The notes under the pieces were generated by a model that worked only from the letters and a program-made list of their open reading frames with translations, had not been told where the DNA came from and made no database searches. A stretch of 60,159 nucleotides of DNA from Burkholderiales bacterium (GTDB lineage Bacteria > Pseudomonadota > Gammaproteobacteria > Burkholderiales > Burkholderiaceae_C). Position 1 is the stretch's first letter. Every line of letters starts with the position of its first letter. The stretch covers positions 1 to 60,159 of the forward strand of contig JAGWLR010000005.1 in NCBI GenBank assembly GCA_028864885.1. The letters are read 5' to 3'. A program made the translations under genes and the position numbers. Positions 14,235 through 20,156 of this stretch are shown here, in pieces.

Positions 14235-16040
14235 TCACACGGCGTGGTCCCAGGGCACCGACAAACGCACCGCACCATTGATGATGCCCACCATCGAGTA
14301 GGTCTGGGGGAAGTTGCCCCACAACTCTCGCGTGGCCGGGGCGATGTCTTCCGACAGCAGGCCCACGTGGTTGCGGCAGGCCAGCAGGGCCTCAAAGATG
14401 GCGCGAGCTTCATCATGGCGCCCGATGCGGGCCAGGGCGTCGATGCGCCAGAACGCACACACATTGAACGCCGTTTCCGGGCGGCCGAAATCGTCCGGCT
14501 CTTCGTAGCGCCGCATGAAGGGGCCATCGCCCAAGGTCTTCTCCAGCGCATCGACCGTCTTGACGAAGCGCTCATCTCGGGGCGAGATGAACCCCACTTC
14601 GGCCATCAGCAACACACTGGCATCGAGGTGCTCGCCGCCGAAGCTTTCCACAAAAGCCTGACGCCGGTCCGACCAGGCCAGAGACAGGATCTTGTCTTGA
14701 ATGATCTGAGCGCGATTGCGCCAACAACTCGCGCGCTCGGCCTGCCCAAAGGCAACTGCAATCTTGGCCAACCGATCGCAGGCCGCCCAGCACATGAGAG
14801 ACGAAGACGTGTGGACGCGGGCTCGGGTTCGCAGCTCCCACATACCGGCATCGGGTTGGTCATGCAATCGCCAGGCTTGTTCACCCATCGCTTCGAGCGC
14901 CTGGAAATCAGTCAAGTCGGCTTGTCTGAACAGGCGGTGGTCGTAAAAAGCTTGCGCAGCGCCCAGCACGATGTTGCCGTAGACATCGTGTTGAAAGTGC
15001 TCATAAGCTTGGTTGCCGACCCGCACGGGGCCCATGCCACGATACCCGCTCAAATGAGCCAATTGGGTTTCATGCAACTCCTTCTCCAGGCCCAGCCCAT
15101 AGAGGGGCTGAATATGCCCTGTGTCGGCCCCTCTCACCACATCGTGCAGCCAACGCAGGTAATCCTCCATGGTGCCCACTTCAGACAAACTGTTGAGGGC
15201 GCGCACCACAAAGAAGGCGTCGCGCAACCAGCAATAACGGTAGTCCCAGTTGCGCTGACTGTGCGGGGCCTCAGGAATGCTGGTGGTCATGGCCGCGACG
15301 ATGGCGCCCGTCTCTTCGAATTGACACAGCTTGAGCGTGATCGCGGCCCGGATGACCGCATCCTGCCATTCGAAGGGCAATGCCAGGCGCCGGGTCCAGT
15401 GGCGCCAGTAAATCGTGGTGTGCTCCTGAAAATCACGCGCGGTTTCTTCGATACCGCCCTCGAAGGTTTCGTCCGGCCCCAAACACAAACTGATGGGGCC
15501 CGACAACGAAAACCACGTTTCGTCAACGACATAGGTAATCGGGGCATTGGTCGTCAAGCGCACCACATAGCTGGACGTGACATAACGAACATGGTTGCTG
15601 CCCCGCGTGATCATGGGCGCTTCTCGCCCCCACTGGCCTCGTGGGCGCACGACGACTCGAATGCGTGGATGCCCCCCGATGGGTTGCACCCGGCGCACCA
15701 GTTGCATGGGACGGAACGTCCGATCCCGCACCACGAAGCGAGGCGCAAAGTCCACGATCTCGACCCCACGCCCCTCGGCATCGAACAAGCGGGTGCGAAG
15801 CACGGCCGTGCCGGCGTCGTAGCTTTGCTCGGACCGAACCATGCCTTCGAGCTCGACACTCAGCGTCCCGTCTTGCCCGATGCCATCGGCAGAATCAAGC
15901 AAGGCATGAAACACGGGATCGCCATCGAATCGAGGCATGCAGCCCCAGACCACACGGGCCTTGGCATCCACCAAGGCACTGATTGCGCAGTTTCCAATCA
16001 CCGCCAAGCTGAGAGAGGCTTCGTCGCCTGTTTCCGTCAT
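14235..16040 (-). CDS. Glycoside hydrolase family 15 protein (trehalase/glucoamylase type)
   Basis: The 601-aa protein has the GH15 architecture: an N-terminal beta-sandwich (about 1-230, beginning LAVIGNCAISALVDAKARVV) and an (alpha/alpha)6 barrel. The barrel carries the signatures RNWDYRYCWLRDAFFV, GYRGMGPVRVGNQAYEHFQ and ELWGNFPQTYSMVGIINGA. Such cytosolic proteins hydrolyse alpha-linked glucosides, and several bacterial members are trehalases. There is no signal peptide. The frame is open to 16229, but family similarity starts at ATG 16040. It is divergent from the otsA fusion gene, which favours a role in trehalose or glucan turnover. Exact substrate is inference. Confidence 0.85.
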   Translation of the reverse strand: MTETGDEASLSLAVIGNCAISALVDAKARVVWGCMPRFDGDPVFHALLDSADGIGQDGTLSVELEGMVRSEQSYDAGTAVLRTRLFDAEGRGVEIVDFAPRFVVRDRTFRPMQLVRRVQPIGGHPRIRVVVRPRGQWGREAPMITRGSNHVRYVTSSYVVRLTTNAPITYVVDETWFSLSGPISLCLGPDETFEGGIEETARDFQEHTTIYWRHWTRRLALPFEWQDAVIRAAITLKLCQFEETGAIVAAMTTSIPEAPHSQRNWDYRYCWLRDAFFVVRALNSLSEVGTMEDYLRWLHDVVRGADTGHIQPLYGLGLEKELHETQLAHLSGYRGMGPVRVGNQAYEHFQHDVYGNIVLGAAQAFYDHRLFRQADLTDFQALEAMGEQAWRLHDQPDAGMWELRTRARVHTSSSLMCWAACDRLAKIAVAFGQAERASCWRNRAQIIQDKILSLAWSDRRQAFVESFGGEHLDASVLLMAEVGFISPRDERFVKTVDALEKTLGDGPFMRRYEEPDDFGRPETAFNVCAFWRIDALARIGRHDEARAIFEALLACRNHVGLLSEDIAPATRELWGNFPQTYSMVGIINGAVRLSVPWDHAV

Positions 16041-16111: not shown

Positions 16112-16162
16112 TATTGATCCTAACACCCTGCGTGTTCAGGCACAGAACCCAAGGGGATGACC

Positions 16163-18400
16163 ATGAACACCTTCCGGTTGCAACTGCGTTTTCTGCTACC
16201 GCTGCTCTTGGCGTTGATCCTGACGGCATACCTGGCTTTGCCGCTGATCGACAAAATGACTCTGCGATGGTTTGCTCGCGATGTCAATCTGCGCGGGGCA
16301 CTGATCACCAACACCTTGTCCGACTCGATTTCAGAGGCGCTGCAGTCCAAGGCCAATGGGCGCTTGCAAGCGCTGTTCAGTCGCGCGTTGCAAGACGAGC
16401 GTCTGGTGGCCATCGGGCTGTGTGATCTGGAGGGGCACTATGTCCTCGAGACCTCGGCCTACCCGGCCAAACTGAGCTGCAACGAGGCCTACCGCATTGC
16501 CGAGTCCAACGAACCGCAGCTCAACATCGACGGCGGCTTTGTGCACGTGGGCAAGCACACGGTGGTGACGGATACGGGGCAACCGATTGCCGAACTGGTG
16601 CTGATGCATGACTTGAGCTTCATTGAAAAGCGCAGCAAAGACACTCAGCAATACCTGATCTTGCTGATCGCCGGGCTGGGCATCGTGGTGGCGTTGATCA
16701 CGATGGTGGTCGCACAGCTAAGTTGGCGCGGTTGGGTCAGGGGCGCGCGCGCGCTGCTGCGTGGCGAGGGACTCCTCAGCCCCTTGCTGTCTCCATCACC
16801 CGAGCTGGCCCCTTTGGCGGCCGACCTGCGAACCCGGCTGCGGGATCTGGAAGACGAATACCGACGCTCGCTCGGCCCGGAAACCAATTGGGATCCCGAG
16901 CGGCTGCGTGCCTTGCTGCGCAGCCAGTTACGAGGCGACGAGTTGATCGTGGTCTCCAACCGTGAGCCCTACATCCACGAAAAGACCGATGACGGGATCG
17001 TCGTCACGCGCCCAGCCAGTGGTCTGGTCACCGCGGTCGAGCCGGTGATGCGCGCGTGCTCGGGCACCTGGATCGCGCACGGCAGCGGCAGCGGTGACAG
17101 GGCCAGCGTCGATGCTCATGACCGAGTCAGGGTGCCTCCAGGGCAAGAGGAATACACCTTGCGCCGAGTCTGGCTGTCTGAGGAGGAAGAGCAAGGCTAC
17201 TACTACGGCTTTGCCAATGAGGGCCTCTGGCCTCTGTGCCACGTGGCGCACGTCCGCCCGGTGTTTCGTGAATCAGACTGGCAGCATTACAAGGCGGTCA
17301 ACCAGCGCTTTGCGGATGCCGTCGTGGCCGAGGCACGCAGCGAAGACCCTGTGGTGCTGGTGCAGGACTACCACTTTGCCCTGCTGCCCGCGATGATCCG
17401 TGAACGCTTGCCACGCGCCACCATCATCACCTTCTGGCACATCCCATGGCCCAACCCTGAATCCTTCGGGATCTGCCCCTGGCGGCAAGAGATCCTCACC
17501 GGCATGTTGGGCAGCACCATCCTGGGCTTCCACACCCGATTCCATTGCAAGAACTTCATTGAAACGGTGGATCGCTATCTGGAAGCGCGGATCGAACACG
17601 AGCACTCGACCATCACGTACCGAGACATCGACACCTTCGTCGAAAGCTATCCGATCTCGATTTCGTGGCCCTCTGAGAAGACCACGTCCACCTGGGATTC
17701 GATTGCACACTGCCGCGCAGCGGTCTTCGAGCGGCTGGGGCTCAAACCCAATCAGAAACTGGCGGTGGGGGTCGATCGCTTTGACTACACCAAGGGCATT
17801 CTGGAACGCCTGCATGCGGTCGAACGCCTGCTTGAAAAACATCCTGAATGGATTGGTGTGTTCAGCTTCGTGCAGGTGGCCGCTCCTTCACGCAGTTCGC
17901 TGGAAGAGTACCAGGCCTTTCAGGCTCGGGTTCACAGCGTCACCGACCGCATCAACCAGCGTTTTGGGCGCGAAGGCTATCAACCGGTTCATCTGCTGGC
18001 CAAACACCACGATGAGCAGGCCATCAACGAACTCTACCGTGCGGCCGATGTCTGCGTGGTCACCAGCCTGCACGACGGCATGAACCTGGTGTGCAAGGAA
18101 TTCATTGCCGCACGCAACGATGAGCGGGGTGTGCTGATCCTGTCGCGCTTTGCCGGTGCTGCTCGCGAACTCAACGAAGCCTTGGTTGTCAACCCATACC
18201 ACGTTGAAGAAACCGCCGACGCCTTGCACCGCGCCTTGACCATGCCTGAGGCCGAACAACGCGAGCGCATGGCCAGCCTTCGCATGACCGTGCGCGAATT
18301 CAACGTCTACCGTTGGGCTGGGCGCATGTTGACCGACGCTGGCCGCTGGCGGCTGCGCGAACGCATCGAAGCCCGACTCAAGCATCACCAGAACCACTGA
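16163..18400 (+). CDS. otsA: Trehalose-6-phosphate synthase fused to a membrane sensor-like N-terminus
   Basis: The 745-aa protein joins a GT20 trehalose-6-phosphate synthase (about 255-740) to a ~250-residue extension. The extension has one membrane helix (about 8-28), a ~130-residue extracytoplasmic domain, a second helix (about 163-186) and a HAMP-like/coiled linker. The catalytic part is complete by motif: ELIVVSNREPY, VLVQDYHFALLPA, TFWHIPWPNPE, VGVDRFDYTKGILERL (Arg and Lys for phosphate) and SLHDGMNLVCKEF. It makes trehalose-6-P from UDP-glucose and glucose-6-P. ATG 16157 directly abuts AAGGGG, so ATG 16163, six nt after it, is the better start. otsB follows by 10 bp. A soluble OtsA is ~470 aa, so this tethering is unusual. 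Confidence 0.9.
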   Translation: MNTFRLQLRFLLPLLLALILTAYLALPLIDKMTLRWFARDVNLRGALITNTLSDSISEALQSKANGRLQALFSRALQDERLVAIGLCDLEGHYVLETSAYPAKLSCNEAYRIAESNEPQLNIDGGFVHVGKHTVVTDTGQPIAELVLMHDLSFIEKRSKDTQQYLILLIAGLGIVVALITMVVAQLSWRGWVRGARALLRGEGLLSPLLSPSPELAPLAADLRTRLRDLEDEYRRSLGPETNWDPERLRALLRSQLRGDELIVVSNREPYIHEKTDDGIVVTRPASGLVTAVEPVMRACSGTWIAHGSGSGDRASVDAHDRVRVPPGQEEYTLRRVWLSEEEEQGYYYGFANEGLWPLCHVAHVRPVFRESDWQHYKAVNQRFADAVVAEARSEDPVVLVQDYHFALLPAMIRERLPRATIITFWHIPWPNPESFGICPWRQEILTGMLGSTILGFHTRFHCKNFIETVDRYLEARIEHEHSTITYRDIDTFVESYPISISWPSEKTTSTWDSIAHCRAAVFERLGLKPNQKLAVGVDRFDYTKGILERLHAVERLLEKHPEWIGVFSFVQVAAPSRSSLEEYQAFQARVHSVTDRINQRFGREGYQPVHLLAKHHDEQAINELYRAADVCVVTSLHDGMNLVCKEFIAARNDERGVLILSRFAGAARELNEALVVNPYHVEETADALHRALTMPEAEQRERMASLRMTVREFNVYRWAGRMLTDAGRWRLRERIEARLKHHQNH

Positions 18401-18410
18401 CCCAAAGGAC

Positions 18411-19175
18411 ATGAGACACCTGTTTTCCCCACTGGGGCATCAATCCCTCAGCACCGTCATGCAGCTCAAGCCTCTGCTGGCGTTTGATTTCGACGGCACG
18501 CTGGCCCCCATTGTTCCGCGACCTGACGACGCCAAGGTCTCGATCAGCATCGCCAACAAATTGGCGCAGTTGGCCGAGCGCCTGCCGGTCGCGATCGTGA
18601 CTGGGCGCAGCATCGCCGATGTGCAGCCCCGGCTCGGATTCGAGCCTGCCTACATCATCGGCAACCATGGTGCCGAAGACCCATTCGACGCGGCATTGGA
18701 CACCGATCGTCTGGCCCACATCGAGCAACTGAACTGGCTTCGTCATAAGGTGTCGCTGGAAGCAGATCGCTTGTTGGCGGCCGGGGTTTCGGTGGAAGAC
18801 AAACTCCACTCCATCGCGATCCATTACCGGCTGGCCAAAGATCGCGAACTGGCGCGCGCCACCATCGAATCGATTCTGCAGGACATGCCGCTCGGGCTTC
18901 ACATCTTCGGGGGCAAATGCGTCGTCAACGTCGTCTCAGAAGCCGCGTCAGACAAAGGCAAAGCCGTTCAACACCTTTTACAGAGAACCGGGCGCAGCGC
19001 GGCAGTCTTCATGGGCGATGACCTGAATGACGAGGCGGTGTTCACCATCGCCCCAGCCCATTGGCTGACAGTGCGAATTGGCCGAGAGAATCCGGCCTCA
19101 AAGGCCCAGTTCTTTCTGGACAGCCACGCGGAAGTGGCCACCATGTTGCAGCAACTGCTGGATGCGGCACCCTGA
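18411..19175 (+). CDS. otsB: Trehalose-6-phosphate phosphatase
   Basis: This 254-aa HAD-superfamily phosphatase releases trehalose from trehalose-6-phosphate. HAD motif I is LLAFDFDGTLAPI (about residues 23-35; nucleophile and acid/base aspartates of DFDGT). Motif II is VAIVTGRSIADV. The late motif is VFMGDDLNDEAVF. Family-typical ENHGAE-like text appears as IIGNHGAEDPF. It lies 10 bp after the otsA fusion gene, forming an otsAB operon. The first ~16 residues precede the conserved start, and MQLKPLLAFDFDG (ATG 18459) is an alternative start. Its stop codon directly abuts that of glk. Confidence 0.93.
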   Translation: MRHLFSPLGHQSLSTVMQLKPLLAFDFDGTLAPIVPRPDDAKVSISIANKLAQLAERLPVAIVTGRSIADVQPRLGFEPAYIIGNHGAEDPFDAALDTDRLAHIEQLNWLRHKVSLEADRLLAAGVSVEDKLHSIAIHYRLAKDRELARATIESILQDMPLGLHIFGGKCVVNVVSEAASDKGKAVQHLLQRTGRSAAVFMGDDLNDEAVFTIAPAHWLTVRIGRENPASKAQFFLDSHAEVATMLQQLLDAAP

Positions 19176-20156
19176 TCAATCCAGCAGGCCTCGCGCGATC
19201 ACGGCGGCGCCCAGCAGACCCAAATCGGGATGGGTCACCACATGGACGGGCATGGATTCAAGCAGCGCTGAATAGGGGCCGGTGCGGTGAAATCCAGCTA
19301 AAAAGGCACCGTCCTTGACGGGCTCCATCAGCCGCGTCACCATCCCGCCGGCTACGAATACACCGCCTCGAGCCAGCAAGGTCAAGGCATGGCTGGCCGC
19401 TATGGCCCCATAAGACAGGAAGAACTCTTTCACCGCCGACAGCGCACGCGGCTCGGACTGCTCCCGCGCCCGACGCACCACCTCTTGCGCAGACAATCCA
19501 GAGTCATCCAATGACATGCTGAAGGGGGCACCTTCATCCAGGGCCCGATAGAGATGGACCAGTCCAGGCCCCGAAACGACATGCTCGGCCACCACGCGGT
19601 CCACAACTCCACGCATGCGCGCCATACACCGGGCCTGCACCTCATTGATGGGCGAGTAGCCCACGTGCCCGCCCTCGCCGGTCAGCACTTCGTAGCGCCC
19701 TTGCCGCCACACCCGCCACGCCACCCCTAAGCCCGTGCCCGCCCCGATCACCAGCTGATTGCCGCCAGGTGTGGGACGTCCAGGCTGCAACTCAAACAGG
19801 TCCTGTGGCGACAGGCTATCGATGCCGGAAGCGGCCGCTTCGAAATCATTCACCAGACGAATCGGGATCGGCCCCAGGGTCTGCTTCAGCCGAGCCGAGT
19901 CCAAAGTCCAGTTCAGATTGGTCATCCGCACTACGCCAGCATCAACGGGCCCAGCCACCCCCAGACACGCGGCACGGATCGGTCGAACTTGAATCAGGCT
20001 TTGATGCTGACGCAAGAAGTCATCCAGCAACGCATCAAAGCTGGGCCAATCCCGCGCAAGGTATCGCTGTTGAACAATGGCCTGCCAAGCCCCCCCTTGG
20101 GCATCGAACAAGCCCAGCAGGGTTTTGGTGCCGCCAACGTCTGCGCAAAGAATCAT
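19176..20156 (-). CDS. glk: Glucokinase
   Basis: The 326-aa ATP-dependent glucokinase belongs to the bacterial Glk family (PF02685 type). The phosphate-binding motif is at the very N-terminus (ILCADVGGTKTLLGLFD). Substrate and second phosphate motifs are LRLVND-like text (IPIRLVNDFEAAA), GAGTGLGVAWRV and GEGGHVGYSPINE. It makes glucose-6-phosphate, one of the two OtsA substrates, and could rephosphorylate glucose released by the GH15 enzyme. It converges with otsB with no intergenic base, and recG lies 20 bp upstream on the same strand in the opposite order, recG being after glk's start. Confidence 0.9.
   Translation of the reverse strand: MILCADVGGTKTLLGLFDAQGGAWQAIVQQRYLARDWPSFDALLDDFLRQHQSLIQVRPIRAACLGVAGPVDAGVVRMTNLNWTLDSARLKQTLGPIPIRLVNDFEAAASGIDSLSPQDLFELQPGRPTPGGNQLVIGAGTGLGVAWRVWRQGRYEVLTGEGGHVGYSPINEVQARCMARMRGVVDRVVAEHVVSGPGLVHLYRALDEGAPFSMSLDDSGLSAQEVVRRAREQSEPRALSAVKEFFLSYGAIAASHALTLLARGGVFVAGGMVTRLMEPVKDGAFLAGFHRTGPYSALLESMPVHVVTHPDLGLLGAAVIARGLLD

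Follow-up and report, generated by a model that had tools for sequence, protein, structure and literature searches.

Can a signal from outside the cell reach a biosynthetic enzyme within one polypeptide chain? The question is raised by a gene on contig JAGWLR010000005.1 of a Burkholderiales bacterium (assembly GCA_028864885.1), of which the window, that is, the whole stretch of DNA analysed here, comprises 60,159 nucleotides. The gene encodes a putative trehalose-6-phosphate (T6P) synthase tethered to the membrane by a sensor-like N-terminal module, and a first-pass annotation, made from the letters alone, had suggested that an extracytoplasmic signal could directly gate trehalose synthesis without a phosphorelay. 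With a probability of roughly 60%, we read the protein as a one-component receptor-enzyme in which the extracytoplasmic state sets T6P synthesis; its structure and ancestry are well supported, and the gating is what we infer. The gene and the parts of its product, including two transmembrane (TM) helices, are listed below (residue n begins at position 16157+3(n-1)).

16157..18400, + strand: gene of the tethered T6P synthase, an open reading frame (ORF) of 747 aa with likely start codon at 16163
16184..16252, + strand: TM helix 1 (residues 10-32), running on as a long extracytoplasmic helix
16253..16651, + strand: extracytoplasmic sensor domain of PDC/Cache fold (residues 33-165)
16421..16423, + strand: Cys89, invariant (98/98 rows), probable disulfide partner
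16478..16480, + strand: Cys108, invariant (98/98 rows), probable disulfide partner
16652..16720, + strand: TM helix 2 (residues 166-188)
16721..16870, + strand: HAMP-like linker of AS1 helix, connector and AS2 helix (residues 189-238)
16871..16939, + strand: coupling segment from linker to GT20, with invariant Trp245 (W-x-P-E-x-L-R)
16940..18337, + strand: GT20 catalytic domain (residues 262-727)

The start at 16163 fits an AAGGGG ribosome site lying 6 bases 5' of the second ATG, as the first-pass annotation had assumed. Two hydrophobic helices were found at residues 13-31 and 167-185 (mean Kyte-Doolittle hydropathy 2.48 and 3.04), and the predicted succession of TM helix, extracytoplasmic domain of about 130 residues, TM helix, HAMP-like linker and GT20 domain was borne out, with the Pfam GT20 match beginning at residue 262, close to the onset estimated at about 255. 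The Pfam matches of the protein included no kinase or phosphorelay domain (HisKA/HATPase), in keeping with the proposed absence of a phosphorelay. Since 98 further loci (class I hereafter) encode the identical domain order, this layout is not due to chance or to a frame error; some of these are near-copies (L003 and L057 are identical in GT20, L008 and L010 nearly so), and the rows are therefore not independent events. Two copies of the window (L001, L002), two cut contigs (L050, L059) and L023 (from alignment A1) were left out before counting. One class I member, L049 (5001-7124), is without TM2 (about residues 155-191), either by true deletion or by assembly error, and was left out of the N-terminal alignment (A2) and of all length counts.

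The N-terminus does hold a sensor fold. Its structure model is confident (predicted local distance difference test, pLDDT, 88.7) and places a PDC/Cache domain between the two TM helices; the nearest solved folds include CitA, LuxQ and WalK, and DcuS and CusS are similar by fold. The profile search that had been advised for this region returned no Pfam receptor family for the N-terminus of the window protein, and no Cache family even at E values as high as 10, so the label PDC/Cache is given by fold only, and the fold rests on the model because a sequence search of the PDB with the N-terminal profile yielded nothing below E 0.64. The NCBIfam model cztS_silS_copS matched 48 of the 98 N-termini (best 1.3e-9; window protein 21.3 bits, cut-off 292.55), which we take as a possible lead to kinship, claiming no metal role, and DgcN matched six of the 98 weakly. 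The commonest Pfam match, Adeno_E3B (34/98 rows, best 2.7e-4), was rejected as a TM-helix artefact. Exactly two cysteines, C89 and C108, occur in the extracytoplasmic part of all 98 class I rows, insertions counted, and they are 19 residues apart in 96 of them; the pair is kept at this spacing in three PDC forms outside class I and in five diverged acidobacterial members, and one of these, L231, carries a third cysteine besides it. A structural disulfide is likely and a redox role is possible. Polar residues next to the membrane are also conserved (W38, D42, R46 and R159). Mean entropy was lowest at the core strand 81-89 (0.96 bits), where conservation peaks, followed by AS1 (1.15), TM1 (1.28) and the juxtamembrane helices (1.23 and 1.29), several distal loops lying near 3.

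Beyond TM2 the model shows a helix (154-201), a connector and a second helix (215-238). The spans P15-W38, D152-R159, R159-A186, A186-G203 and W245-N268 have a single length in 98/98 rows and E216-W245 has one length in 94/98, whereas the connector G203-E216 varies, with 12-23 residues among its eight commonest lengths. Two helices of nearly fixed length joined by a free connector after TM2 is the geometry of a HAMP domain. Relatives came from a sister class of GT20 fusions (15 rows, alignment A3), found in the phyla to which the Geobacter and Nitrospira contigs belong; this class matches the family of the window protein over nearly the full length (255 columns, E 1.2e-26). Its linker looks like HAMP (W-S-I-T-G-P-I-A ... 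L-x-P-L-x-x-E-V), the distance from PLxxE to the Trp is 33 residues in 15/15 rows, Pfam HAMP matches weakly in 3/15 (best E 0.025) and dCache_3 in 4/15 (best 8.2e-6). Compared with HAMP domains of the genome that holds the window (16 of 19 used, L216-L218 being left out), the sister-class linker gave 27.5% and its controls at most 1.8%. No cysteines were present in the 15 A3 rows from the aligned start onward. An acidobacterial member of the sister class, L236 (572-2776), has two sensor cysteines, by eye at positions unlike those of the class I pair. Furthermore, the class I N-terminal profile matches four acidobacterial histidine kinases (L227-L230) in which HAMP, HisKA and HATPase each exceed the Pfam cut-off, and one of them, L228, aligns with A2 through its HAMP (E 2e-8, 225 columns). 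A kinship of the N-terminal module with its counterpart in genuine HAMP histidine kinases is thus detectable, and the sister class, the kinases, the geometry and the model together speak for the class I linker being a diverged HAMP.

In the catalytic part, Pfam GT20 (PF00982) covers residues 262-727 (E 2.9e-128; 429 bits, cut-off 32.5). Thirteen residues (R269, G289, W305, Y349, W358, D404, H428, R541, K546, R579, D640, N643 and E648), whose counterparts contact the donor or acceptor in known T6P synthases, are invariant in 99/99 rows and align with fungal Tps1 (five sequences). The roles are in part given in passages on MtrOtsA (PMC6879718). The predicted active site is intact, which agrees with the catalytic motifs recognised at first pass, and T6P would be the product, a proposal supported by the adjoining otsB, GH15/trehalase-like and glucokinase genes. 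Two subfamily motifs, HIPWPNPESFGICPW and LWPLCH, are not found in the five aligned fungal sequences.

The first-pass annotation had expected similar fusions in related Burkholderiales, which proved too narrow, as relatives with the module occur in Geobacter, Nitrospira, Acidobacteria and Bdellovibrionota genomes. Among 300 genomes of the order, GT20 exceeded the cut-off in 46 and the tethered form was found in 21, own genome counted, 20 of which have no other GT20; a match in G201 (L023, E 1.9e-4) was judged by eye to be a chance match opposite a tRNA-synthetase/ribosomal-protein region and was dropped from this count. Within the genus, 22 of 42 genomes match the protein, G333 in its GT20 part only, which leaves 21 with all or part of the module. 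Two genomes of the genus, G302 and G308, have two tethered copies each, 67%/55% and 74%/54% identical to the window protein. The family is carried by Geobacter sp. contigs (L053, L058, L061, L072) and by strains of Massilia, Janthinobacterium, Rubrivivax gelatinosus and Noviherbaspirillum, and cultured hosts therefore exist. At 1e-5 the N-terminal profile matched 19/198 genomes in the Geobacter phylum, 29/148 in the Nitrospira phylum and 25/297 in the acidobacterial phylum, counts in which the close class is pooled with diverged relatives, sister-class members and other proteins. Thirteen weaker matches, from the acidobacterial profile search and that of one other phylum, were inspected and included the four kinases and one more protein without GT20; L239, a match in the Geobacter phylum, likewise has no GT20.

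GT20 trees rooted on 36 canonical OtsA rows (84 of 149 rows, rebuilt with 92 of 165; a quick method without bootstrap) joined all tethered forms in one clade (Shimodaira-Hasegawa-like approximate likelihood ratio test, SH-aLRT, 100). The sister class formed one group, and so did ten forms with a single TM helix and no PDC (L133, L135, L136, L138, L140-L143, L145 and L146), beside the PDC-bearing L137, L139 and L144 outside class I. This single-TM subclade is probably rhizobial (alphaproteobacterial); L133 is from Aminobacter and the other nine share one family code. Anchor and Trp lie 46 to 57 positions apart in its ten rows, a variation that fits a length constraint tied to the sensor. L147 (G056), with a GT20 domain about 50% identical and no PDC or TM helix by eye, forms the first, long branch of the clade, and the groups were unchanged when the tree was rebuilt without it. 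One fusion followed by one loss of the sensor, with the anchor kept, is the simplest reading; given the position of L147, the ancestor may also have been soluble once the lineage had parted from canonical OtsA.

The gene is surrounded by genes of trehalose and glucose metabolism:

18411..19175, + strand: otsB, T6P phosphatase, 10 bases downstream (T6PP, TIGR00685, 124 bits; cut-off 68.05)
14235..16040, - strand: divergent GH15/trehalase-like gene (GH15 and TREH_N over cut-off; the start at 16040 is a chosen one)
19176..20156, - strand: glucokinase, convergent with otsB (TIGR00749, 248.9 bits; cut-off 225.45)

Among 80 class I loci fetched, some on short contigs, an OtsB match was present in 66, GH15 in 43 and glucokinase in only 4. 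From 27 class I loci 130 neighbouring ORFs were listed and 122 scanned, the commonest families being trehalose phosphatase (17) and GH15 (14). A scan for sigma-70 promoters and terminators found nothing in the intergenic gap, and the own genome gave no match to TreY or TreS (TreT and other routes were not searched).

Around the sister class (77 neighbouring ORFs, 20 of them Pfam-scanned, several contigs being short), genes for MscS-type channels were found at 6 of 16 loci, all on the synthase strand. At five of these 16 loci a protein matches an MscS-DUF5752 fusion along its length, and at the sixth the end of the MscS gene overlaps the start of the fusion gene. Pfam bore out the fusion at two loci (L193, L196) and, at L194, the separate channel; the remaining loci were identified by tblastn:

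L193:3097-4491 and L196:8984-10357; similar in L195, L198 and L199: MscS beta-domain/DUF5752 (PF19027) fusion beside tethered T6P synthase, OtsB and TreT

Five further loci have a match to the DUF5752 part alone; a second trehalose synthase, TreT, is matched in 10/16, at some of them on the opposite strand. The MscS genes point to osmotic or turgor physiology; class I loci do not share them. Our literature search, which covered Creative Commons-licensed PubMed Central papers judged mostly from listings, found no description of DUF5752. BKACE genes (L190, L191) or an iron alcohol dehydrogenase gene (L186) also lie beside sister-class fusions, with no evident link.

In the mechanism that we propose, the Cache-type extracytoplasmic domain, held by its two TM helices, would sense an osmotic, envelope or ligand state and pass it through TM2 and the HAMP-like two-helix linker directly into the GT20 T6P synthase, after which OtsB would turn T6P into trehalose. 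The enzyme would presumably work as a membrane dimer whose sensor switches synthase activity, and the signal may be osmotic or envelope-related. Several results weigh against this reading. The window protein has no match to Pfam HAMP (PF00672) even at E values as high as 10 (HMMER filters drop most matches above about 0.1), and HAMP is not among the 25 of 47 Pfam families listed for the 98 rows; against the 16 own-genome HAMP domains the class I linker gave 3.4%, less than a control segment (8.3%). Of the first-pass claim of a HAMP-like linker, then, the relatives, the geometry and the model uphold the likeness, the Pfam call is missing, and we say "HAMP-like" only. In addition, the most conserved sensor segment is the core strand rather than the juxtamembrane helices. 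The protein scores 442.8 bits against the OtsA equivalog cut-off of 564.85 (TIGR02400) and is therefore filed as a distinct GT20 subfamily, with T6P synthesis as a probable function. MS_channel_2nd matched just two of the 122 class I neighbour proteins, and the 6/16 MscS figure is a raw count with no background rate for arbitrary genes. Finally, the ten single-TM forms, which belong to the same catalytic subfamily, argue against the sensor being indispensable. The idea that the signal gates synthesis keeps the sensor fold, the receptor topology and the HAMP-like linker on its side, the step from these to gating being one of reasoning.

Those ten members are also what lends weight to the main rival, a passive membrane anchor whose N-terminus only positions the synthase (near OtsB, transporters or the envelope) with no control of catalysis; they make the anchor the element common to the PDC and single-TM forms. 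Near-fixed helix lengths around a variable connector, the conserved juxtamembrane W38, D42, R46 and R159, and the kinship of the receptor module with its kinase counterpart would not be expected of a plain anchor, and we hold this explanation to be unlikely, if a serious one. The shortfall from the OtsA equivalog cut-off and the two subfamily motifs could instead mean that the enzyme differs from that of E. coli in its acceptor or donor, the product not being T6P and the sensor still in control. This is improbable, as the substrate residues are invariant, OtsB is matched in 66/80 loci and GH15 trehalase-like and glucokinase genes adjoin. We give marginally less credence still to inside-out signalling, in which the catalytic domain would sense sugar phosphates and alter the periplasmic domain, as LapD does with cyclic di-GMP: LapD-type receptors have degenerate enzyme domains, whereas the catalytic residues are kept here, and the 25 commonest of the 68 families in the 122 neighbour proteins include no obvious periplasmic partner. 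A frame fusion or assembly artefact has a negligible probability and is refuted in practice by the 98 further loci with the same layout, drawn from several phyla, and by additional relatives of the N-terminal profile.

Compared with known systems, the receptor-enzyme proposed here shares the TM-PDC-TM-HAMP chassis with Cache-HAMP histidine kinases (CitA, WalK, DcuS and CusS by fold, L227-L230 by sequence), whose output is a kinase and phosphorelay instead of a biosynthetic glycosyltransferase. Cache-HAMP diguanylate cyclases (YfiN/DgcN) and HAMP adenylate cyclases are one-chain receptor-enzymes and likewise couple an outside sensor directly to an enzyme, but they make second messengers and not a bulk compatible-solute precursor. 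OtsA/Tps1 enzymes (GT20; 6jbi, 5huv, 5jij, 1uqt) have the GT20 domain, the substrate residues and the otsB partner in common with the window protein; they align only over its residues 259-730 and have no sensor or TM helices. According to passages of PMC6879718, mycobacterial OtsA is regulated by cytosolic 2-oxoglutarate and 2-phosphoglycerate. The OtsA of Arthrobacter A3, called an 'osmotic stress sensor' whose self-assembly is promoted by T6P, also ties T6P synthesis to osmotic sensing, with no receptor module described in the sections consulted and the word 'transmembrane' absent from the main text (PMC5685639). The nearest mention that we found in print is a passage on GSU2337 of Geobacter sulfurreducens, presented as a T6P synthase 'containing a domain' similar to the enzyme of M. 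tuberculosis, GSU2336 being the phosphatase; that passage mentions no sensor or HAMP (PMC2700814). The literature search described above found no sensor-fused T6P synthase, in line with the first-pass statement that no such mechanism was known. Excerpts of an R. etli trehalose paper mention neither a membrane OtsA nor 'transmembrane', and excerpts of a Chem Rev review neither 'HAMP' nor 'membrane-anchored'.

The usual explanations of how solute synthesis responds to osmotic change are transcription and the ions and metabolites of the cytosol. With receptor and synthase in one chain, this coupling would be post-translational, immediate and testable in a single protein, and the family extends the outputs known behind Cache-HAMP receptors to a bulk-metabolite enzyme. 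More tentatively, and with odds that we put below even, this may be a widespread family of osmotic or envelope sensors, of single origin, whose Cache-HAMP receptor acts as an allosteric switch on a compatible-solute synthase according to the state of the envelope, accompanied in some clusters by an MscS-type channel. If so, it would constitute a circuit leading from sensor to biosynthesis without kinase, second messenger or transcription.
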